The translations under genes and the position numbers were made by a program. Of a stretch of 64,000 nt of DNA, positions 7,399 to 56,462 are shown piece by piece. A model generated the notes under the pieces. The model did no database searches, had not been told where the DNA came from, and saw only the letters and a program-made list of their open reading frames with translations. Every line of letters starts with the position of its first letter. The first letter of the stretch is position 1. Source of the DNA: Natrinema caseinilyticum (GTDB lineage Archaea; Halobacteriota; Halobacteria; Halobacteriales; Natrialbaceae). The stretch spans positions 620,001 through 684,000 of the forward strand of contig NZ_CP100445.1 of NCBI RefSeq assembly GCF_024227435.1, read 5' to 3'.

Positions 7399-7728
7399 AC
7401 AGTAGTCTAACGCTTTTGCCCCACAAATAGCACGTGGACCTACTGAGGCACCGAGAGTTGAAGAGACTGCCCAGTCCTTCGGGGCGGGGAGGCTGTCAGT
7501 TCGGTTCGTCAGCGACCGATGGACGCCGCCGTTCGTCGAGGTCGGCGTAACTGCGGGTCTCGTCACCGTCGTCGAACTGGAGCGCCGTCCCGCTCGAGAT
7601 CACGGGTCAGGCTGGATTCGAAACACCCCTTCAGGGAGGACGGTTGATTGGCGCTGTCTGGGATGGTCGTCGTGCGAAATAGTACGTTGGATCGAATCGA
7701 TGGTCGCGTGCGTACGATTACTGACCGC
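7399..7728. other. 330-base intergenic region
   Basis: Lies between acxC and the exporter gene, which run in the same direction. I see no gene, repeat or convincing promoter here. Confidence 0.4.
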
Positions 7729-8226
7729 TTACTGTTTGTCCGGCGCGTTCCGTCCCAACCAGTCCTCGTAGAAGTCGTCGATGTACGGCCTGAAGTCGAA
7801 GATAATCGGGTAACCCGGCGGAACCGCTTCGACTTCGAGTTGCGTTTTACAGCCCGGACAGAAGTACTCGCGGAGGACCATCCACTCGGGATCCGAGTGC
7901 ATGGCCTCCGGATAGATCTCCTGGAGATCCTCGCGACTGTCCCTGACGTTGATGAGTGCCTCGTGCTTCCAGTTCTCTCGATAATCTCCGAACTCGTGGC
8001 CGCAATCACACTTCGTGATCCGCTCGCTTCCGTTGTTGACCACGTAGAGGTGATCGGTCAGCGGGAGCAAGATCGTGTCGTCCCACTCCGCTCGTTCCTG
8101 GAGGATCTCCCGGTACGTGTCGAAGCGGTCCGAGTCCTTGTACGCACTCATCATATCCTTCGCGTCGTCGAAGGGGATGGTGCCGTCAATGAGCGATTCG
8201 ATTCGTTCTCGTGAGTACTCTGGCAT
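7729..8226 (-). CDS. acxC: Acetone carboxylase gamma subunit
   Basis: The 165-residue protein fits the small gamma subunit of ATP-dependent acetone carboxylase (about 20 kDa). Recognisable features are YREILQERAEWDD (about residues 38-50), a first Cys/His cluster KCDCGHEFGDYRENWK (Cys73, Cys75, His77), VRDSREDLQEIYP, a second cluster REYFCPGCKTQLEVEA (Cys123, Cys126) and the end FYEDWLG. Two cysteine pairs are consistent with a metal site. It is the last gene of the tight acxA-acxB-acxC operon, three bases after acxB. This subunit separates acetone carboxylases from plain hydantoinases and oxoprolinases, which lack it. Confidence 0.88.
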   Translation of the reverse strand: MPEYSRERIESLIDGTIPFDDAKDMMSAYKDSDRFDTYREILQERAEWDDTILLPLTDHLYVVNNGSERITKCDCGHEFGDYRENWKHEALINVRDSREDLQEIYPEAMHSDPEWMVLREYFCPGCKTQLEVEAVPPGYPIIFDFRPYIDDFYEDWLGRNAPDKQ

Positions 8227-8229
8227 TGG

Positions 8230-10503
8230 TTAGTCCTCCGTTTCGAACGTAAAGTCGGCAGGCAGGTCCCAGAACGAGCGGAAGTGGTCGTCCCACTCCT
8301 CGCTCAGTTCGAGACTCTCGTTGTAGCTCCGTTTCACGACGGGGATGAAGTTCCCCTCGACGACGTCTTCTCGGCGTTGTTCCATCCACTCGTCGACCGG
8401 CATCGCTTCCTCGCCCCGTTGCTCGCGGATGCGCTCCCGTTTCGTTGCCGTTTCCTCCGGATCGACTTCGTACGCACCGTCACCGACCTCCGTCACGTGA
8501 GCACCGTAGACGCGCTCGGCATACTCCGGGTGGACGTGTTCGTCGTTGAGGTCCGCCTCGATGAGTTCGATGTCCCGCTCGAGTGGGTCGCCGAGACCGG
8601 CGCCGCCCCGGTTGACGCTGAGGTACAGGTCGCGTTCGTCGTACTCTTCGAGGAGCGAGGTCCCTCGTTCCTCGAACTGACGGTCGTCGCCGTCGACGTA
8701 GTCGAACATCTGGGAGTCTTCGGGCGTCCCGTCTCGAATCGGGTACTTGTCGCGGTTCTCGATCCGTTCGTCCATGTCGTTGTCTCTGACGTTGTGAATG
8801 TAGCCCGTCGAGGACGGGTAGCCGCCGAACATGCCGGGACTGTTGAACGCCAGCGCGTTCCCGTTGTTCTGCAAGTAGAGTTCGTCGGTTCCCCAGGCCA
8901 TTCGGACCGATTCGAAGGCGGACCCGCCGCGGTACTTGCCCATCCCCGCGCTGTTTGGCTTGAGCCGCCGACCGAGATACAGCGCGGGTTCGAGTAGTTC
9001 CCACACTTCGACCTCGCCGAGGTCCGCTTCGGGGTTCCACATCGCGTACGCGGCATCGAAGCCGTCGGTGAAACCGCGAGCGCCGAACCCTTGACTCGAC
9101 AGTTCGAAGTTCAGCGTCGCGAACGGTTCGCCGAACATGTCGGTGCCCTCCCCCTGGAAGTAGTTGGCGGTATCGCCGTAGCTCGAGGCCATCTCTTCGA
9201 TGTAGCCCCTGGCGTTGAACGATCGCGTTAGCGACCGGATCATCCCCGAGAGCGACGGCCGGAGGAAGTGCCACGCATCGGCCGTCGCCGCTCGGACGGT
9301 GTCCGGATTACACCACGCCCCCTCCGGAGCCGACGTCTCCGTGGCGTAGTAGGCGCCGTCGTTGATCTTATCGTTCGGAATGATCGTCTGGGTCAGTAAC
9401 ACCCAGATCGCACCCTGGAGCGCGCTCGGCGTGCAGTTGAAGACGTGTTCGCCCTGGGCGTCCGCGCCGTCGAAATCGAGTTCGAACGAGCCGTCCGATT
9501 CGATGTTGACCTCCAGGGGCGCGTGCATCATGTCGTCGTTGGCGGACCGTTTCGGCAGGCCCTGTTCGCCCTCGAGCGGGACGTCGGTGAACGTCGGCGC
9601 CCGGTAGCGACCGGGGACGGTGAGTTCCCTGATTCGCTGTTTGAAGTCCCGACGGCCGTCCTCGATGACCTCTCGCACGAATCGCTTGTAGGTGTCGACG
9701 CCCTCCTCCTCGATCAGGCTGTGGACGGCGTCGCGAACCATGTGACACCCGGCGAGCCGGCAGCGCTCGTCGAGTTTCCAGAGTTCGGGCGTTCGCACGC
9801 CCATCTCGGCGCGTTTCTCGTAATCGGCGTCCAGGCGATCGTTCTCGCCGATCTTCATCGCCGGAATGTCGAAGCCGTCGTCGTACCTCGACGTCGGCCC
9901 GACCGGGTCACCGCCGGGCGACGACGCACCGATGTCGACCTCGTGCGTTACGCCGCCCGCCCACGCGACGAGTTCCCCCTCCCAGAAGATGGGGACGATA
10001 GTCTGAACGTCGGTGTTGTGGACGTCGCCGATGTGCGGATCGTTGTTACAGAAGATGTCACCCGGTTCGATGCCCGGATTCGTTTCGTAATCCTGGCGGA
10101 TCATCCACTTTATCGCGTCGCTGGTCGTGTGGACGTGGACGATAATGCCCGTCGACAGCGCGACGCTATCGCCTTCGGGTGTGTACAGCATGAAACTCAG
10201 TTCCCCGATCTCCTTTACGATGGGGCTCGCGGAGATGTTCAGCGCCGTCTCGCGGGCGTTGACCAGTCCGCCTCGAAGCTGTGAGAAGATTTTCTCGTAT
10301 TCGATAGGCGTCTCCGATTTGAGTTCCAGTTCGTCGATACCGTAGCAGTGGCCGGTCTCCTCGTACTGCCGTTCGGCCGTTTCGAGCATCTCTTTGATCG
10401 ACTGTCCGTTCCAGCCGATTCCCTCGTCCGTTCCGGTCTTCTCGGAGAGTCGTTCCTGTTCGGCTCGCACGCGGTCGGTGAGGTTGTCTTGTTCTGAAGC
10501 CAT
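8230..10503 (-). CDS. acxB: Acetone carboxylase alpha subunit (HyuB/oxoprolinase-type)
   Basis: A 757-residue hydantoinase-B family protein, matching the roughly 85 kDa alpha subunit in length. This subunit carries the Mn site where phosphorylated acetone and bicarbonate are joined. The family core FCNNDPHIGDVHNTD is followed by AWAGGVTHEVDIG. His162, Asp165 and His187 have the i, i+3, i+25 spacing that I recall for the Mn ligands of the Xanthobacter enzyme (His150, Asp153, His175). SQGFGARGFTDGFDA and the VNRGGAGLGDPLERD segment are also family-typical. It sits three bases after acxA and three before acxC. An alternative is a carboxylase for another ketone. Confidence 0.88.
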   Translation of the reverse strand: MASEQDNLTDRVRAEQERLSEKTGTDEGIGWNGQSIKEMLETAERQYEETGHCYGIDELELKSETPIEYEKIFSQLRGGLVNARETALNISASPIVKEIGELSFMLYTPEGDSVALSTGIIVHVHTTSDAIKWMIRQDYETNPGIEPGDIFCNNDPHIGDVHNTDVQTIVPIFWEGELVAWAGGVTHEVDIGASSPGGDPVGPTSRYDDGFDIPAMKIGENDRLDADYEKRAEMGVRTPELWKLDERCRLAGCHMVRDAVHSLIEEEGVDTYKRFVREVIEDGRRDFKQRIRELTVPGRYRAPTFTDVPLEGEQGLPKRSANDDMMHAPLEVNIESDGSFELDFDGADAQGEHVFNCTPSALQGAIWVLLTQTIIPNDKINDGAYYATETSAPEGAWCNPDTVRAATADAWHFLRPSLSGMIRSLTRSFNARGYIEEMASSYGDTANYFQGEGTDMFGEPFATLNFELSSQGFGARGFTDGFDAAYAMWNPEADLGEVEVWELLEPALYLGRRLKPNSAGMGKYRGGSAFESVRMAWGTDELYLQNNGNALAFNSPGMFGGYPSSTGYIHNVRDNDMDERIENRDKYPIRDGTPEDSQMFDYVDGDDRQFEERGTSLLEEYDERDLYLSVNRGGAGLGDPLERDIELIEADLNDEHVHPEYAERVYGAHVTEVGDGAYEVDPEETATKRERIREQRGEEAMPVDEWMEQRREDVVEGNFIPVVKRSYNESLELSEEWDDHFRSFWDLPADFTFETED

Positions 10504-10506
10504 CGT

Positions 10507-12654
10507 TCAGTTCTCCTGTGTCAGGTGGAAAATTCGGTGATTGTCCAGGTCGGCCGTGAAGTTCGGTGGGACGACGAACGTGGTAGCGGGAGACTCGACG
10601 ATGGCGAGTCCATCGATGACGTTCCCGGCCTCCAGGTCGGTCATCTCCCATATCGCCGCGTCCTGCCAGTGGCCGTTCCAGTACACGTCGCGCGTCCCCT
10701 TGGCCGCTTCCGCCGGCGGCTCCTCGTCCTGGAGGGCCACGTCCGGTATCTGCGGTTTTTCGGTCGGAACGTGTCCGACGCCGACGGCGCGGGTGATGGT
10801 GTATCCCAGTTCCGGCGACGCGGCCGACCGAGCGTACACCTTGGCGTAGTGGTCCTCGAAATTCTCGATGAGCTGGTCGACCTCTTCCGGCTCGGTGATG
10901 TTCGCGGTCGGGGCCGACACCTCGAGGGTGTTGAGTTGACCCTGGTATTGCATCCGGACTTCGGGGTCGAGCGAGACGTCCTCGGGATCGTAGCCGCTGC
11001 GCTCGAATTCCGCGACGATATCCTCTCTCAAGGTCGCCCACTGGTCGTTGAGCGTCTCGGCGATATCCATCTTCGCCTCGTCGTCGAGTTCCGGGCCGAC
11101 GGGCAGGTCGATGGTCGCCTCGTAGCGGTACTCGTAATCCCCACACGCGCAGCCGAACGCCGAGAACGCGGCCGCCCACGCCGGAACCAGCACGTCCTGA
11201 AAGCGCAGATCCTCGACGTACTGGGCCGCGTGAACCGGACCGCCACCGCCGTACGAGATCAACGAGTAGTTGACCGGCGAATAGCCCTTTCCGAGCACTG
11301 CCGCGTTCACCTGGTTCTGGAGGCGCGACTCCATGAGGTCGACCGCACCCTCGGCAGCCTCGTAGGCGTCGACGCCGAGTTTCGAGGCGATCCGCTCTTC
11401 TATCGCCGTCTTGGCCGCCTCCGTATCCAGTTCGAGGTCGCCCCCGAGGAAGTAGTCCGGGTTGAGAATACCGAGCAGAAGGTCACAGTCGGTGATCGTC
11501 GGCTGTTCGACGTCGCCCTCGACGTTGCAAACGCCGATTTGATCTCCGGCACTCTCCGGCCCGATCTCCATTCGATTCGAGTTCGGGTCGATCTTGACGT
11601 GCGAGCCCGTTCCGGCACCGATACTGTCGAGTTCGACCATCGATTGGTTGAGCAAGTACCGTGCGATGGTGGGTTCCGGATCGACGGAATACGACGAGTC
11701 GGTGATGAGCGACAGGTCGAAACTCGTCCCGCCGATGTCGGTACACACCAGATTGTCGATGTCGAGGTGGTTCGCGACGTAGTCCGCGCCGATGACTCCG
11801 CCGATGGGGCCGGAAATGAGCGTGCTCGCCAACCGTTCCGAACTGTAACTGATGGTGCCGCCGTGACCGGCCATCACCCTGAGTTCGAATTCGGCGCCGA
11901 GGTCGTCACAGGTTTCCATCACGCCGTGCAGTTGTTCTCGAGACGGTTCGGCCGCGTACGCCTCGGCGATCACCGTATTGAGCCGCATGAAATCGCCCCT
12001 CACGGGTTGTATTTCGCTCGCGAGGTACAGCGGGACGTCATCGCCCCGTTCTTCCATCACTTCCCGAGCGATTTCTTTGGCTCGCTTCTCGTGCGCATCG
12101 TTCGCATACGAGTAAATGAAGTTGAAGATCAGGTAATTGATATCCTCGTCGAGGAGGTCGTCGACTGCTGACCGCACCTCTTCTTCGTACAACGGGATCG
12201 CTTCCCGCCCCAACGGGTCCATTCGTTCGCGAACGCCACGAATGAGGTCTTTCGGGATGAACGGTTCGTTGTGCTGGTGCGTGACGGAGTGGAGCCGATC
12301 GGAGTACGAATAGTTCGTGTACGTCTGTCGTGCCCGCTCCGTTCGGAGATAATCTTCCTGTCCCGCAGTGACGATCACCCCGCCGATTTCGCCCTCCTGT
12401 TCGAGCAAGCGATTCAGCATCGCCGTGCCCGAATAGATCCCGGCGGTGAGGGACGGAAACGCGTCGTCAGGCGAGACGTCCCAGTATCCCAGACCGTCGT
12501 CGATGGAGTTACGGAACCCCTCCGATTCGTTTTCCGGTGTCGTCTGTGCCTTTCCGACAGTGAACCCGCCATCGGAATCGATGACGATGGTGTCCGTCAG
12601 TGTCCCACCTGCATCGATCGCCAGTATTTCTGGTTGGTGTCTATCCACGGACAT
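10507..12654 (-). CDS. acxA: Acetone carboxylase beta subunit (HyuA-type ATPase)
   Basis: A 715-residue hydantoinase-A family protein, the size of the roughly 78 kDa beta subunit that uses ATP to phosphorylate acetone and bicarbonate. Residues 11-22 (LAIDAGGTLTDT) form the first phosphate-binding strand of the acetate/sugar kinase fold. The second, VCTDIGGTSFDLSLI, follows the ISGPIGGVIGA segment, and LISYGGGGPVHAA is the third nucleotide-binding block. PAWAAAFSAFGCACGDYEYR is close to acetone carboxylases as I remember them. It is the first gene of the operon, with the ATG at 12654 and a TATA-like box about 65 bases upstream. Confidence 0.88.
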   Translation of the reverse strand: MSVDRHQPEILAIDAGGTLTDTIVIDSDGGFTVGKAQTTPENESEGFRNSIDDGLGYWDVSPDDAFPSLTAGIYSGTAMLNRLLEQEGEIGGVIVTAGQEDYLRTERARQTYTNYSYSDRLHSVTHQHNEPFIPKDLIRGVRERMDPLGREAIPLYEEEVRSAVDDLLDEDINYLIFNFIYSYANDAHEKRAKEIAREVMEERGDDVPLYLASEIQPVRGDFMRLNTVIAEAYAAEPSREQLHGVMETCDDLGAEFELRVMAGHGGTISYSSERLASTLISGPIGGVIGADYVANHLDIDNLVCTDIGGTSFDLSLITDSSYSVDPEPTIARYLLNQSMVELDSIGAGTGSHVKIDPNSNRMEIGPESAGDQIGVCNVEGDVEQPTITDCDLLLGILNPDYFLGGDLELDTEAAKTAIEERIASKLGVDAYEAAEGAVDLMESRLQNQVNAAVLGKGYSPVNYSLISYGGGGPVHAAQYVEDLRFQDVLVPAWAAAFSAFGCACGDYEYRYEATIDLPVGPELDDEAKMDIAETLNDQWATLREDIVAEFERSGYDPEDVSLDPEVRMQYQGQLNTLEVSAPTANITEPEEVDQLIENFEDHYAKVYARSAASPELGYTITRAVGVGHVPTEKPQIPDVALQDEEPPAEAAKGTRDVYWNGHWQDAAIWEMTDLEAGNVIDGLAIVESPATTFVVPPNFTADLDNHRIFHLTQEN

Positions 12655-12716
12655 CCTCTCGGCATATGCTATTTGTTATCAACAACCTTGCTTCGAACCG
12701 GGCCCCATATATATCG

Positions 12717-12728
12717 ATTATTTATAAC
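12717..12728 (-). promoter_or_regulatory. Candidate TATA box for the acxABC operon
   Basis: The minus-strand sequence GTTATAAATAAT lies about 65 bases upstream of the acxA ATG. The neighbouring TATATAT at about 12708-12714 is an alternative. Either would leave a leader of roughly 30-40 bases. The whole 286-base divergent region is AT-rich compared with the flanking genes. Confidence 0.4.
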
Positions 12729-12833
12729 AGATCCGGCGTCAACCCCGTCGAGGGAGGACGCGAAACCAACTGATACGCGCCATGAAAAGTCGTTTCTGGG
12801 AATAATTGAAAAATCGCTCACGAAGTGACGGAT

Positions 12834-12842
12834 GATTTATAG
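12834..12842 (+). promoter_or_regulatory. Candidate TATA box for the acyl-CoA ligase operon
   Basis: ATTTATAGG on the plus strand, about 100 bases upstream of the ligase start, within the same divergent region as the acx promoter. The spacing implies a leader of about 70 bases, which would hold the AGGA ribosome binding site just before 12941. Confidence 0.35.
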
Positions 12843-12940
12843 GTAGATTGATAGTTCGGCGTGTGGAGGGTGCGACACATCCACGACACACGGTACCATG
12901 AACCCAACCAATCAGTCCACCAGTTGTCCAGGATGTGGCC

Positions 12941-14515
12941 ATGAATCGTGACCTCTGCTCCATGGGCGAGTTCTACGAGGAACTGTTCCGTCGGTACGGG
13001 GAGAAGCCGGCCATTAGATACGAGAACGAGATCACCACGTACGCCGATCTCGATGCCCAGTCGGCGAAATTGGCGAGCGCGTTTCACGCGCTCGGGATGT
13101 GTGGAAACAACCGCGTCGCGATCCTCATCGGGAATCGACCCGAGTTTCTCATCACCGAGATCGCAGCGGCCCGAGCGAACGTGACGACGGTCCCGCTAAA
13201 CAGCCAGCTCAGCGACGAGGAATGCGAATACACGCTCTCCGATGCGACGCCCGACGTTCTGGTCGTCGGGCCGACGTTTTTCGATACCGTCCGGGACCTC
13301 CAGCAGCGATCCCAGGAGTGCAGTCACGTCATCGGACTCGGCAGCGACAGCGAACTCCCGATCGGGTTTCACAGTTTCGACGGGCTGCTGGAGAAAGCGC
13401 CGTCGACTCCACCGGAGCCCCACTCGAGAGCGGACGATATCGCGACGATTTTCTACACGGGCGGAACGACCGGCGAGCAAAAAGGGACGCGTCACACCCA
13501 CGAGAGCATCGTTCTCAATCTCTACTCGCACGTCTACGAGTTCGAGGTGCGAAAGGGAGAAATCGGCTTACTCGTCACCCCGCTCTCGCACTCGGCCGGG
13601 TATTTCGCGAAGTCGATTCTCATGCAAGGGGGAACCGTCGTGCTCGATCAGGTATTCGAACCGGAGGCCCTCGTTCAACGCATCGAGAACGAACGCGTCT
13701 CCTGGGTGTATCTCACCCCGACGATGATCGGCGAACTCCTCGACCACCCCGCCATTGCAGACGCCGAGACATCCGCACTCGACACGGTCGTGTACGGATC
13801 CGCGCCGATTCCGACGTCCCGGCTCGAAGAGGGACTCGAGGCACTCGGACCCGTCTTCGTTCAGTTCTACGGGTTAACCGAGGTACCGAACCTCGTTGCC
13901 GTCCTCCCGAAGGCGAAACACGATACTACGGAGGACGAGTGGCTCCAGTCGAACGGAATTCCGGCCCAGCTGGCCGACGTCACGCTACTCGAGTTCGGAG
14001 ACGAGCGCGACGAGTGGGGCGACGACATCGGGGAAGTCGGCGTGCGATCCCCCTACGCGATGGAAGGCTACGTCGACGACGGTCCGACCGCGCCCCGATC
14101 CGACGACGAGTGGATACGGACCGGAGACATCGGCCGCATCGACGACGACGGTCGCCTGTCCATCCTCGATCGGATACAGAACGTCATCGTTTCGGACGAC
14201 CAACTGGTGTACTCGACGAAAGTCGAGAGCGTCGTCCAGCGCCATCCTGCGGTTCGCGAGGTCGCAATCATCGGCGTGCCGAAGAACCAGGTCGACTACG
14301 CCTCCGATGTCACCTTCCGCAGGACCGAACAGGACATAAAAGCGATCCTCTCGCTCGACGACGATGAGATGCTCGACCTCGAGGAACTACAGTCGTTCTG
14401 CCGAGGGCGGCTCGACCCACCGGCGATACCGAAATCGGTCGACACCGTCGGAACGTTGCCCCAGACACCCTACGGGAAGATCGACAAAAAACTGCTGCGG
14501 GACCCGTACTGGTAA
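12941..14515 (+). CDS. AMP-forming acyl-CoA ligase (ANL superfamily)
   Basis: About 524 residues with the adenylate-forming enzyme motifs in order: the A3 phosphate loop FYTGGTTGEQKGT, A5 QFYGLTE, A7 RTGDIGRIDDDGRLSILDR and the A10 catalytic lysine in TPYGKIDKKLLR. It would activate a carboxylic acid to its CoA ester with ATP. I chose ATG 12941 because AGGA lies seven bases upstream; an in-frame GTG at 12935 is the alternative. Its position, divergent from acetone carboxylase, makes acetoacetate a plausible substrate, which is an inference. Its stop codon overlaps the start of the next gene by one base. Confidence 0.85.
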   Translation: MNRDLCSMGEFYEELFRRYGEKPAIRYENEITTYADLDAQSAKLASAFHALGMCGNNRVAILIGNRPEFLITEIAAARANVTTVPLNSQLSDEECEYTLSDATPDVLVVGPTFFDTVRDLQQRSQECSHVIGLGSDSELPIGFHSFDGLLEKAPSTPPEPHSRADDIATIFYTGGTTGEQKGTRHTHESIVLNLYSHVYEFEVRKGEIGLLVTPLSHSAGYFAKSILMQGGTVVLDQVFEPEALVQRIENERVSWVYLTPTMIGELLDHPAIADAETSALDTVVYGSAPIPTSRLEEGLEALGPVFVQFYGLTEVPNLVAVLPKAKHDTTEDEWLQSNGIPAQLADVTLLEFGDERDEWGDDIGEVGVRSPYAMEGYVDDGPTAPRSDDEWIRTGDIGRIDDDGRLSILDRIQNVIVSDDQLVYSTKVESVVQRHPAVREVAIIGVPKNQVDYASDVTFRRTEQDIKAILSLDDDEMLDLEELQSFCRGRLDPPAIPKSVDTVGTLPQTPYGKIDKKLLRDPYW

Positions 14516-15228
14516 TGGAGCTTACAAATCAGGACTCGAATCGACTCCGGATCGAGTTTCAGACCGAGCCGATCGGCGTACTCGAGTCGATACGCCGCGA
14601 GCTATCCGGATCCGCCCAGATCGAACTCGACAACGTGGTACCCGGGTCGGCTAACAGCCACTGGCTCGAGTTCTTCACGATAACCGCCCCGAGCGTCGCG
14701 GACTTGTCCGAGGTCCTCGCCGAGATAGAACACGTCGAGCCGATATTCGTCCAGCCAACGAGTTCGATCTCGAATACGTTCTACGTACTCACCTACATCG
14801 ACGAACACCAGCCCAGACCGACGGCGACTCTCCTCGAGCACGACGCTATTCCGCATCGCATTCTCGTCCAGAATCACGGCATGACCGTCGTCGCGTCCGT
14901 CTCGAGCTGGCAAAAACTAAAACAGTTAGCCGAGAACGTCGAACGCCAGCAACGCTCGTTCGAACTCGTCGGCGTAAAAGAGACCAACGAAATGAGCTTC
15001 CCGCTCGGCGGCAGCAATCTCAAGTACAACCTGCAAGGAAAGTTGACGTCCGAGCAGTTGACGATCATCGAGACCGCCTACCGGTGTGGGTACTTCGAGG
15101 TCCCACAACAGGCGACAGCCGAAGACGTCGCGCGAGAACTCGACATCAGCCAGTCGACGCTGAGCGAGCAGCTCCGAAATGCACAGAACGCGGTTTGGAA
15201 CGTCCTCTTCGGCGATCGGATCCAGTAG
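14515..15228 (+). CDS. HTH_10 (bacterio-opsin activator-type) transcriptional regulator
   Basis: A 237-residue haloarchaeal regulator. The last 50 residues form the HTH_10 domain (TIIETAYRCGYFEVPQQATA, then EDVARELDISQSTLSEQLRNA), the C-terminal DNA-binding module of Bat-like proteins. The N-terminal 170 residues form the mixed alpha/beta sensor or adaptor region typical of these proteins, without a PAS or GAF domain that I can identify. Its ATG overlaps the ligase stop (TAATG), so the two are translationally coupled. It is the obvious candidate to control the ligase and the divergent acx operon, but direct evidence is only positional. Confidence 0.85.
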   Translation: MELTNQDSNRLRIEFQTEPIGVLESIRRELSGSAQIELDNVVPGSANSHWLEFFTITAPSVADLSEVLAEIEHVEPIFVQPTSSISNTFYVLTYIDEHQPRPTATLLEHDAIPHRILVQNHGMTVVASVSSWQKLKQLAENVERQQRSFELVGVKETNEMSFPLGGSNLKYNLQGKLTSEQLTIIETAYRCGYFEVPQQATAEDVARELDISQSTLSEQLRNAQNAVWNVLFGDRIQ

Positions 15229-28000: not shown

Positions 28001-28130
28001 TGACATCCCCCTCGCCGTAAACGGCGAGGCTTCCCACGCATGGGGAATACCAGTTAGTCGTCGCTGGCAGAGGGTTTAGACTCTCGAAACGCCGTGAGCG
28101 TCATCTGCGCTGGTACGCTCGTCTCACGGT
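28001..28130 (-). ncRNA. Predicted omega RNA (reRNA) of TnpB at the right end
   Basis: IS200/IS605 TnpB proteins use an RNA encoded across the tnpB 3' end and the right end, with the guide coming from flanking DNA. Here the segment after the tnpB stop at 28054 carries two stem-loops: tccccatgcgtgggaa (about 28031-28047) and the CTCGCCGT hairpin at 28011-28028. The element then ends near GGATGTCA at 28001. The guide would start at about base 28000 and read leftward. The 5' extent is a guess. Confidence 0.4.
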
Positions 28131-29313
28131 GAGTCGTGGCCGTGTCACTACGGCTCCCGTCCTGTGGCGAGTCATCGCGTTCCGCCTTGTCAAGCGGGAC
28201 GCTCTCTCCCCACGGGTCAACCCGTCGTGCGATATTCGCGGAAGCGTTGATGTCGGCCTGAAACGTCGAAACGTGGCAGTCGTCGTTCGGACACCGGAAC
28301 TCAGCTTGTGAGTCCCGACGACCGATGCGGTGGCACGAGTGGCACGTCTGCGAGGTGTACGCCGGATTCACGTACTTGAACGGGATGCCTGCTTCCGTCG
28401 CCTTGTCCTCGATTCGCCCTTGGAGTCGGGCGAACGCCCACGAGTGAAGCCGACGGTTCATGTACTTCCCGTAATCGAGACGCTCACGGATGTACGTCAA
28501 GTCCTCCATCACCAACACCGGATTCTCGAAGGAACGGGCGTACTCGACGGCCTGCCGAGACGCCTTCTCCACGATGTCGGTGAGCGCGTTCTGGTAGTAC
28601 GAGAAACGGTCTTCAATCCGCCACTCGGATGCGTCACGCTCTTGGAGGCGTTTCAGGGTCGTGTGCATCTCTTTGCGGAGATGCTTCGCTCTGCTTCCGC
28701 TACACACAAACGGGTCAGTCGGAGACCCGTCCTTGAGGGCATAGCCCGTTATCAGGGCGGTTTCTCCGATGTCTAATCCGATGTGCGTGGCGTCACCGTC
28801 CGTCGCTGGTTCTTCGACTGGGTACTCGACGGTGACGTGTAGTACCCAGTTCTTCCGGTGCTGTTGAAGCCGTATCTCGCCCGCCTTCGCGTCCTCCGAT
28901 ACGAGGTCGTGCCAGAGGTCTTCCTGTTCTGGGTTGATGCGGAGCGGTATCCAGAAGTTCGTTCCCCGACCGGGGCGTGGAACCCACCACGTGAACTCGT
29001 AGTCGCGTTCTTCGGAGTGGTCGAACTTCGCGGCTTGGTTCGTGAACCGTATCGGGTGGCCGTCGTCCAACTCCTTGGCGTTGTACGTCTTCCGAAGTTT
29101 CGGGACGTAGTTGCAGAGAGCGGCTTTGGCCTGATACGGGAGGTCGTAGGGCGTCACGATGTCGCTCACCGCCGACATGGTACTCGCACCGGCGTCAAAC
29201 GCTTCTTGTAGACCGTCACGGTACGTTTCGAGCAGGACGTTGAGTTTCGACCGCTTGTGCGTGGTGGGTGGCGCGAACGTCGCCTGCAACGTCTTCGTGA
29301 CGGTCGGAGACAC
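28054..29313 (-). CDS. tnpB: TnpB, RNA-guided nuclease of the IS200/IS605 element
   Basis: A 419-residue TnpB of the usual length. The split RuvC nuclease residues are Asp181 (IGLDIGETALITGYAL), Glu270 (PVLVMEDLTYIRERL) and Asp354 (TFQADINASANIARR). The zinc finger is CHSC (Cys324, Cys327) with CPNDDC (Cys341, Cys346). All catalytic and zinc residues are present. It starts with GTG at 29313, one base after the tnpA stop codon, so tnpB is probably co-translated. Its role is guided cleavage of the donor site, which helps retain the element. Confidence 0.9.
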   Translation of the reverse strand: MSPTVTKTLQATFAPPTTHKRSKLNVLLETYRDGLQEAFDAGASTMSAVSDIVTPYDLPYQAKAALCNYVPKLRKTYNAKELDDGHPIRFTNQAAKFDHSEERDYEFTWWVPRPGRGTNFWIPLRINPEQEDLWHDLVSEDAKAGEIRLQQHRKNWVLHVTVEYPVEEPATDGDATHIGLDIGETALITGYALKDGSPTDPFVCSGSRAKHLRKEMHTTLKRLQERDASEWRIEDRFSYYQNALTDIVEKASRQAVEYARSFENPVLVMEDLTYIRERLDYGKYMNRRLHSWAFARLQGRIEDKATEAGIPFKYVNPAYTSQTCHSCHRIGRRDSQAEFRCPNDDCHVSTFQADINASANIARRVDPWGESVPLDKAERDDSPQDGSRSDTATTHRETSVPAQMTLTAFRESKPSASDD

Positions 29314-55499: not shown

Positions 55500-56462
55500 A
55501 TGACACGGTCCACCCGCCAGCGGGAGCGAACGCGCGAGACGGACGAGACCGAGGAACAAGAGGGGGTACGTGCCTGCCCCGAGTGTGAATCGGATAATCT
55601 CGTTAAGGACTCCGACAGGGGAGAGCTCATTTGTGAAGACTGTGGGCTCGTCGTGGAGGAAGAACAAATCGACCCAGGCCCGGAGTGGCGGGCGTTCAAT
55701 CACCAGGAACGACAAGAAAAGTCCCGCGTCGGTGCGCCGACGACACAGACGATGCACGACAAGGGGCTGACGACGACGATCGACTGGAAGGACAAGGACG
55801 CCTACGGACGCTCTATTTCCTCGAAAAAGCGTAGTCAGATGCACCGGCTACGCAAGTGGCAGGAACGTATCCGAACGAAAGACGCAGGCGAGCGAAATCT
55901 GCAGTTCGCGCTCAGCGAGATCGACCGCATGGCCTCAGCACTGGGTGTCCCGCGCTCGGTCCGCGAAGTCGCGTCGGTGATCTACCGGCGCGCGCTCAAA
56001 GAAGACCTGATCCGCGGCCGCTCGATCGAGGGCGTCGCGACGTCTGCGCTGTACGCCGCCTGTCGTAAGGAGGGAATTCCACGAAGCCTCGAGGAAATCT
56101 CGGAAGTCTCTCGCGTCGAACGCAAAGAGATCGGTCGCACGTATCGATACATCTCACAGGAACTCGGCCTCGAGATGCGTCCCGTCGACCCGAAAAAGTA
56201 CGTCCCGCGCTTCTGTTCTGAACTCGAACTGTCCGAAGAGGTCCAGACGAAGGCCAACGAGATCATCGAGAAGACGGCCGAGGAAGGGTTGCTATCGGGC
56301 AAGTCACCGACCGGGTACGCCGCAGCCGCGATTTACGCTGCGTCGCTGCTCTGTAACGAGAAGAAAACCCAGCGAGAGGTCGCCGACGTCGCGCAGGTGA
56401 CCGAGGTGACGATCCGGAACCGGTACCAGGAACAGATCGAAGCGATGGGAATTCACGGCTGA
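55500..56462 (+). CDS. tfb: Transcription initiation factor IIB (TFB)
   Basis: A 320-residue TFB. The N-terminal zinc ribbon has Cys26, Cys29, Cys45 and Cys48 ([10 protein letters not shown], then [14 protein letters not shown]). The B-finger region [20 protein letters not shown] follows, then two cyclin repeats (for example [20 protein letters not shown] and [20 protein letters not shown], ending [18 protein letters not shown]). Haloarchaea carry several TFBs, so the paralogue number cannot be assigned from this window. Confidence 0.93.

Follow-up and report, generated by a model that had tools for sequence, protein, structure and literature searches.

A putative small-ketone carboxylase cluster of the acetone carboxylase family in the haloarchaeon Natrinema caseinilyticum

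A gene cluster in the haloarchaeon Natrinema caseinilyticum is best explained, with good probability on the comparisons presented here, as encoding an ATP- and metal-dependent carboxylase of small ketones together with a linked CoA ligase and a Bat-type regulator. Its core occupies positions 7729-12654 of the window, the 64-kb stretch of DNA analysed here (C1:620001-684000 of a genome of 4.77 Mb in three contigs). Three genes on the minus strand are transcribed in the order beta (acxA-like, 10507-12654, 715 amino acids), alpha (acxB-like, 8230-10503, 757 amino acids) and gamma (acxC-like, 7729-8226, 165 amino acids); at both junctions, the following gene starts exactly 3 bases after the preceding stop. 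Beta was identified by Pfam (Hydant_A_N / Hydantoinase_A / Hydant_A_C), structure matches and conserved residues, alpha by Pfam (Hydantoinase_B), structure matches and its metal ligands, and gamma by Acetone_carb_G (E = 6e-44) and its zinc cysteines. The initial annotation had described a complete three-gene operon with the order, sizes and motifs of acetone carboxylase and had taken gamma as the telling part; coordinates, gaps, Pfam and structure matches agree with the former, and the gamma profile and both cysteine pairs bear out the latter.

These three carboxylase genes are genuine and undisrupted, and the purifying selection on them is strong. The beta-alpha-gamma order is kept in most of the approximately 75 related operons examined. 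Comparison with the closest relative that is complete, locus L176 (genome G415, of the same family; subunits 92-93% identical), gives a dN/dS of 0.036-0.038 for the three genes, at a dS near or above 1, where synonymous sites are close to saturation. The conserved order and a dN/dS of about 0.04 exclude chance as the origin of the operon. Recent foreign import was considered on compositional grounds and finds no sign there, the G+C content being 61.3% against 61.6% for the window and GC3 being 78-82%, like that of the neighbours.

By structure-guided and profile comparison, the operon belongs to the acetone carboxylase family. The top match among solved structures for every subunit is the acetone carboxylase of Xanthobacter autotrophicus (5m45/5svb; E = 8e-215 for beta, 5e-199 for alpha and 4e-50 for gamma), and identity to Xanthobacter AcxABC is 42-48% over the full length, which makes the fold of the three subunits clear. 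AcxABC of X. autotrophicus Py2 (PDB 5SVB, 5SVC, 5M45; PMC5543143) has the same gene order and subunits of similar size (approximately 717, 776 and 168 amino acids for beta, alpha and gamma). It is, however, regulated by a sigma-54 activator, whereas the cluster studied here has a Bat-type HTH_10 regulator and a linked CoA ligase and lies on a separate branch of the family.

Branch position, active site and substrate

In every tree built from joined beta and alpha sequences, the studied operon and L176 fall outside the clade of characterised enzymes. This clade has full support and comprises Xanthobacter, Cupriavidus metallidurans, Bacillota and the common haloarchaeal operons; the C. metallidurans enzyme is reported to be induced when cells grow on acetone or 2-propanol (personal communication cited in PMC2864759). 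The test of joining the studied operon to the clade gives a weak rejection with 52 rows (p-AU 0.019) and falls just short of one with 37 rows (p-AU 0.054), and the outside placement counts as moderate evidence because the tested group was picked after the tree had been seen. The bacterial operons closest by path are the uncharacterised ones of Aneurinibacillus danicus (L081), the nearest bacterial relative with 55-58% identity, and Alicyclobacillus tolerans (L031). Both share the metal-site signature KEIGEL / DVHN.D with the studied operon, and L081 has a linked ligase of the same subfamily, but in these Bacillota hosts a sigma-54 activator lies upstream. The operon is an offshoot within an enzyme family already known and not something wholly new.

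Some other operons differ at the metal ligands themselves. In an outgroup branch of acetone-carboxylase-like operons comprising L182 (Sinorhizobium meliloti pSymB), L023, L021 and L082, Gln replaces the metal ligand His150, and in L057, L075, L089 and L095 Met replaces the ligand His175; the chemistry of these operons may differ. Bracketing function through the S. meliloti outgroup was dropped on account of this Gln in its alpha subunit, and no functional paper on the S. meliloti acetone-carboxylase-like operon was found in the literature searched.

The metal and zinc ligands of the studied operon are those of the Xanthobacter enzyme. The alpha ligands of the metal (Mn), E89, H150, D153 and H175 in Xanthobacter (PMC5543143, PMC10865871), are all kept as E101, H162, D165 and H187, and the gamma zinc cysteines (Xanthobacter Cys74, 76, 124 and 127) as C73, C75, C123 and C126. 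In beta, the AMP-stacking (nucleotide-capping) Phe405 is kept as F402 and Asn578 as N575, while Ser391 is changed conservatively to T388. The second shell of alpha departs further, with Glu85 replaced by Lys97, Trp408 by Leu418 and Trp438 by Tyr448, whereas Glu85 and all four Trp are kept in Xanthobacter, Cupriavidus and the common haloarchaeal type. In the ligand-free Xanthobacter enzyme, alpha Glu85 pairs with beta Asn578 (PMC5543143). The original proposal of an acetone carboxylase thus stands for the family and is less secure in the strict sense, given the outside placement with its p-AU values and the second-shell changes.

Acetone is the substrate that we moderately favour, since those three-subunit relatives cited here that have been examined experimentally act on or respond to acetone; otherwise it would be another small ketone, for example butanone. 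What allows for such another ketone is the place in the tree together with the replacements in the second shell. That an enzyme of the same type works physiologically on butanone, a longer methyl ketone or a cyclic ketone carries a substantial, though minority, share of the probability. Besides the branch and the three replacements near the metal, the resemblance of the linked ligase to fatty-acid-CoA ligases speaks for it, as does the presence in a single genome of two different carboxylase operons that both have a ligase of their own. Acetone carboxylases, however, accept butanone anyway, and no neighbouring gene indicates a specific other ketone. Furthermore, the role proposed for the Trp residues near the metal site is to control the entry of metal or water (PMC10865871), not that of substrate, so that their replacement may affect metal choice only.

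The linked ligase and regulator

The functional unit is larger than the three genes at 7729-12654, to which it had been confined at first: it also takes in a ligase and a regulator at 12935-15228, because both are conserved beside these operons in haloarchaea. The ligase gene lig1, recognised by profile match and synteny as an AMP-forming acyl-CoA ligase, runs divergently on the plus strand at 12935-14515, its conserved start probably being the ATG at 12941, and its stop is overlapped by the start of the Bat-type HTH_10 regulator gene (14515-15228, plus strand). Both are 78-79% identical to their L176 counterparts, with a dN/dS of about 0.11. Relatives of lig1 adjoin carboxylase operons in 20 loci, as grouped by local clustering with a few looser members, and relatives of the regulator recur in 13 loci, all haloarchaeal. 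Within its own genome, lig1 shares 42% identity with the ligase beside a second carboxylase operon, 39% with one other, and approximately 31% or less with the remaining full-length AMP-ligases over similar lengths. The carboxylase-linked ligases, including the one beside the Aneurinibacillus operon, form one subfamily with the generic annotation 'long-chain-fatty-acid-CoA ligase'.

A block upstream of beta (12674-12714, minus strand), conserved between two sequences only, is a candidate promoter or operator. The two sequences compared keep a TATA-like stretch at about 12707-12714 and a 26-base block, GGTTCGAAG.AAGGTT.TTGATAACA, at 12674-12699. A search of 12655-12940 for promoter dyads and repeats returned short, chance-like repeats only.

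The arrangement in L176 is regulator, ligase, divergent beta-alpha-gamma and then a second ligase, lig2, which is intact directly downstream of gamma in both L017 and L176. In the present genome, comparison with relatives reveals only a truncated and frameshifted remnant of lig2, covering the first 45 or so residues (7529-7664, minus strand), and this loss counts against our best explanation. The same-genus genome G027 (L107) retains only a C-terminal gamma fragment (9110-9418), without alpha or beta nearby, which is 87.5% identical at the DNA level to window positions 7736-7927 over 192 bases and probably represents a lost operon. Both observations would fit a cluster that is decaying and no longer functional, an improbable reading given open, full-length frames for all three subunits, lig1 and the regulator and a dN/dS of 0.04-0.11 for these genes against L176. 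Elsewhere in the window, a segment of approximately 840 bases (55619-56449) is 78% identical to L107:7141-7971 of G027, near the gamma fragment, and an open reading frame at 28054-29313 resembles, by eye from its translation, a TnpB/OrfB-type transposon protein.

If the cluster is the small-ketone carboxylase that we prefer, the operon would encode a heterohexameric, biotin-free enzyme dependent on ATP and a divalent metal. By analogy with the Xanthobacter enzyme, ketone and bicarbonate would be phosphorylated at the beta nucleotide site, and the phosphorylated intermediates would travel through an internal channel to the alpha metal site (E101/H162/D165/H187), where C-C bond formation would yield a 3-oxoacid; gamma would hold a structural zinc. 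Lig1 would convert the 3-oxoacid to its CoA ester, and a genome thiolase would cleave this to acetyl-CoA; thiolases and a CoA-transferase pair are present in the genome. The Bat-type regulator would control the cluster, presumably in response to the ketone. What the data show directly is gene content, homology, ligand conservation, purifying selection and the conserved neighbourhood of ligase and regulator; activity, substrate, metal and the roles of ligase and regulator we infer. It counts against this reading that no ketone-producing enzyme (2-propanol dehydrogenase or monooxygenase) lies next to the operon, and an alcohol dehydrogenase in the window is 13 kb away.

Comparison with related ATP-dependent enzymes

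The membership of alpha in the Hydantoinase_B family and of beta in the Hydantoinase_A family, together with the hydantoinase-type names of haloarchaeal relatives in public records, could also suggest a diverged ATP-dependent amidohydrolase (hydantoinase, oxoprolinase or caprolactamase) that has retained a gamma-like subunit. This is very unlikely: caprolactamase and hydantoinase structures score far behind acetone carboxylase, the NCBIfam caprolactamase cut-offs are not reached (371/1000 and 79/1000 bits), and such enzymes are two-subunit or fused and have no gamma, which is present here. Three other Hydantoinase_B genes in the genome are available for such work.

The acetophenone carboxylase of Aromatoleum (PDB 5L9W, PMC5214803) is related in fold, with homologous large subunits and a small zinc-type subunit, and ApcB is the only NCBIfam match of gamma, below its cut-off. 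It differs in having a four-subunit core plus epsilon. E values against acetophenone carboxylase structures are 5e-111, 3e-50 and 2e-10 for the three subunits, the acetone carboxylase scores being approximately two to four times higher, and NCBIfam cut-offs for Apc subunits are far from reached (48/250, 195/1500 and 377/1500 bits). Similarly, the studied operon keeps 67% (alpha) and 71% (beta) of the residues that do not vary among Xanthobacter and 17 Bacillota enzymes, against 28% and 43% in acetophenone carboxylase. With no extra Apc subunit genes among the neighbouring genes examined, an acetophenone-carboxylase-like enzyme for an aromatic ketone has the smallest probability of all. The structure-sequence and profile searches thus reject the hydantoinase, caprolactamase and acetophenone carboxylase readings; the proteins do not cluster with these enzymes, and gamma did not turn out to be unrelated, two outcomes that would have spoken against the initial annotation.

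Haloarchaeal operon types and their meaning

A search with gamma across 392 genomes of the order returned matches in 35; about half of these belong to the acetone carboxylase type, the others being weaker hits that resemble acetophenone carboxylase. The studied operon is not the only one of its kind in haloarchaea, and the commoner type is closer kin of the characterised enzymes. The studied type is complete in L176 and partial in L017, at the end of a contig from a Halorientalis MAG; gamma genes also occur in the same-genus genome G023 and on NZ_CP100757.1 of Natrinema gelatinilyticum. The common type, found for example in Haloterrigena (L054), Haloquadratum (L064), Natronomonas, Halovenus and Natronorubrum (L180, a plasmid of Natronorubrum aibiense), shares family, gene order and the subfamilies of the AMP-ligase and Bat-type regulator with the studied cluster. 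It differs in grouping with the characterised enzymes, in an alpha of approximately 840 amino acids with a C-terminal extension of about 70, and often in a second alpha gene about 4 kb downstream (80% identical in L054).

In L054:7425-16561, L180:7147-18461 and L097-L102, this second alpha lies after the ligase, in L180 also a methylmalonyl-CoA-epimerase-like VOC protein, and the Bat regulator, so that two alpha genes accompany one beta and one gamma. On a plasmid of Halococcus dombrowskii, a gene for a zinc alcohol dehydrogenase (L179:3659-4711) directly precedes a common-type operon, which would fit a step from 2-propanol to acetone.

The host's own second carboxylase operon (at about C1:1095160-1100175; L016:3161-8176) is distantly related to the studied one and groups with operons of Asgard archaea and Dehalococcoidia. 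A luciferase-like monooxygenase gene lies upstream of it, and in the gamma subunits of L016 and L177 Ala replaces the first zinc cysteine (Cys74). A single common origin of the haloarchaeal operons is rejected, both for the studied type joined with the common type (p-AU 2e-7) and for the studied type joined with the host's second copy (p-AU 4e-8). These rejections indicate that the three carboxylase types most likely entered haloarchaea separately. A further-reaching view, which we hold only tentatively, is that the operon represents an uncharacterised biotin-free subfamily acting on a ketone other than acetone or with another metal, and that haloarchaea acquired three types separately and in each case linked them to a dedicated CoA ligase and a Bat-type regulator of the same sort.

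Public records already name haloarchaeal gamma genes 'acetone carboxylase subunit gamma', among them those on Halococcus and Natronorubrum plasmids, while the large subunits appear as 'hydantoinase/oxoprolinase family protein', in keeping with the earlier expectation that haloarchaeal homologues exist as automatic annotations. As that account had also supposed, a search of mainly open-access literature found no paper in which acetone carboxylase and haloarchaea or halophilic archaea are both mentioned, and nothing relevant on the use of acetone by these organisms.

For the fixation of bicarbonate, ketone carboxylases need no biotin but use a mechanism of phosphorylation and channelling that is rare and has been studied in only a handful of bacteria. 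In haloarchaea, salt-adapted forms of no fewer than three branches are available; the characterised active site occurs in one of these branches and not in the other two, so that the role of the residues surrounding the metal, in metal as against substrate choice, becomes testable by comparison of natural variants. The finding broadens the range of an enzyme already known and does not uncover a new enzyme. By analogy with its relatives, the cluster probably enables the cell to feed on acetone or a comparable small ketone, which predicts a ketone-using niche in brines.
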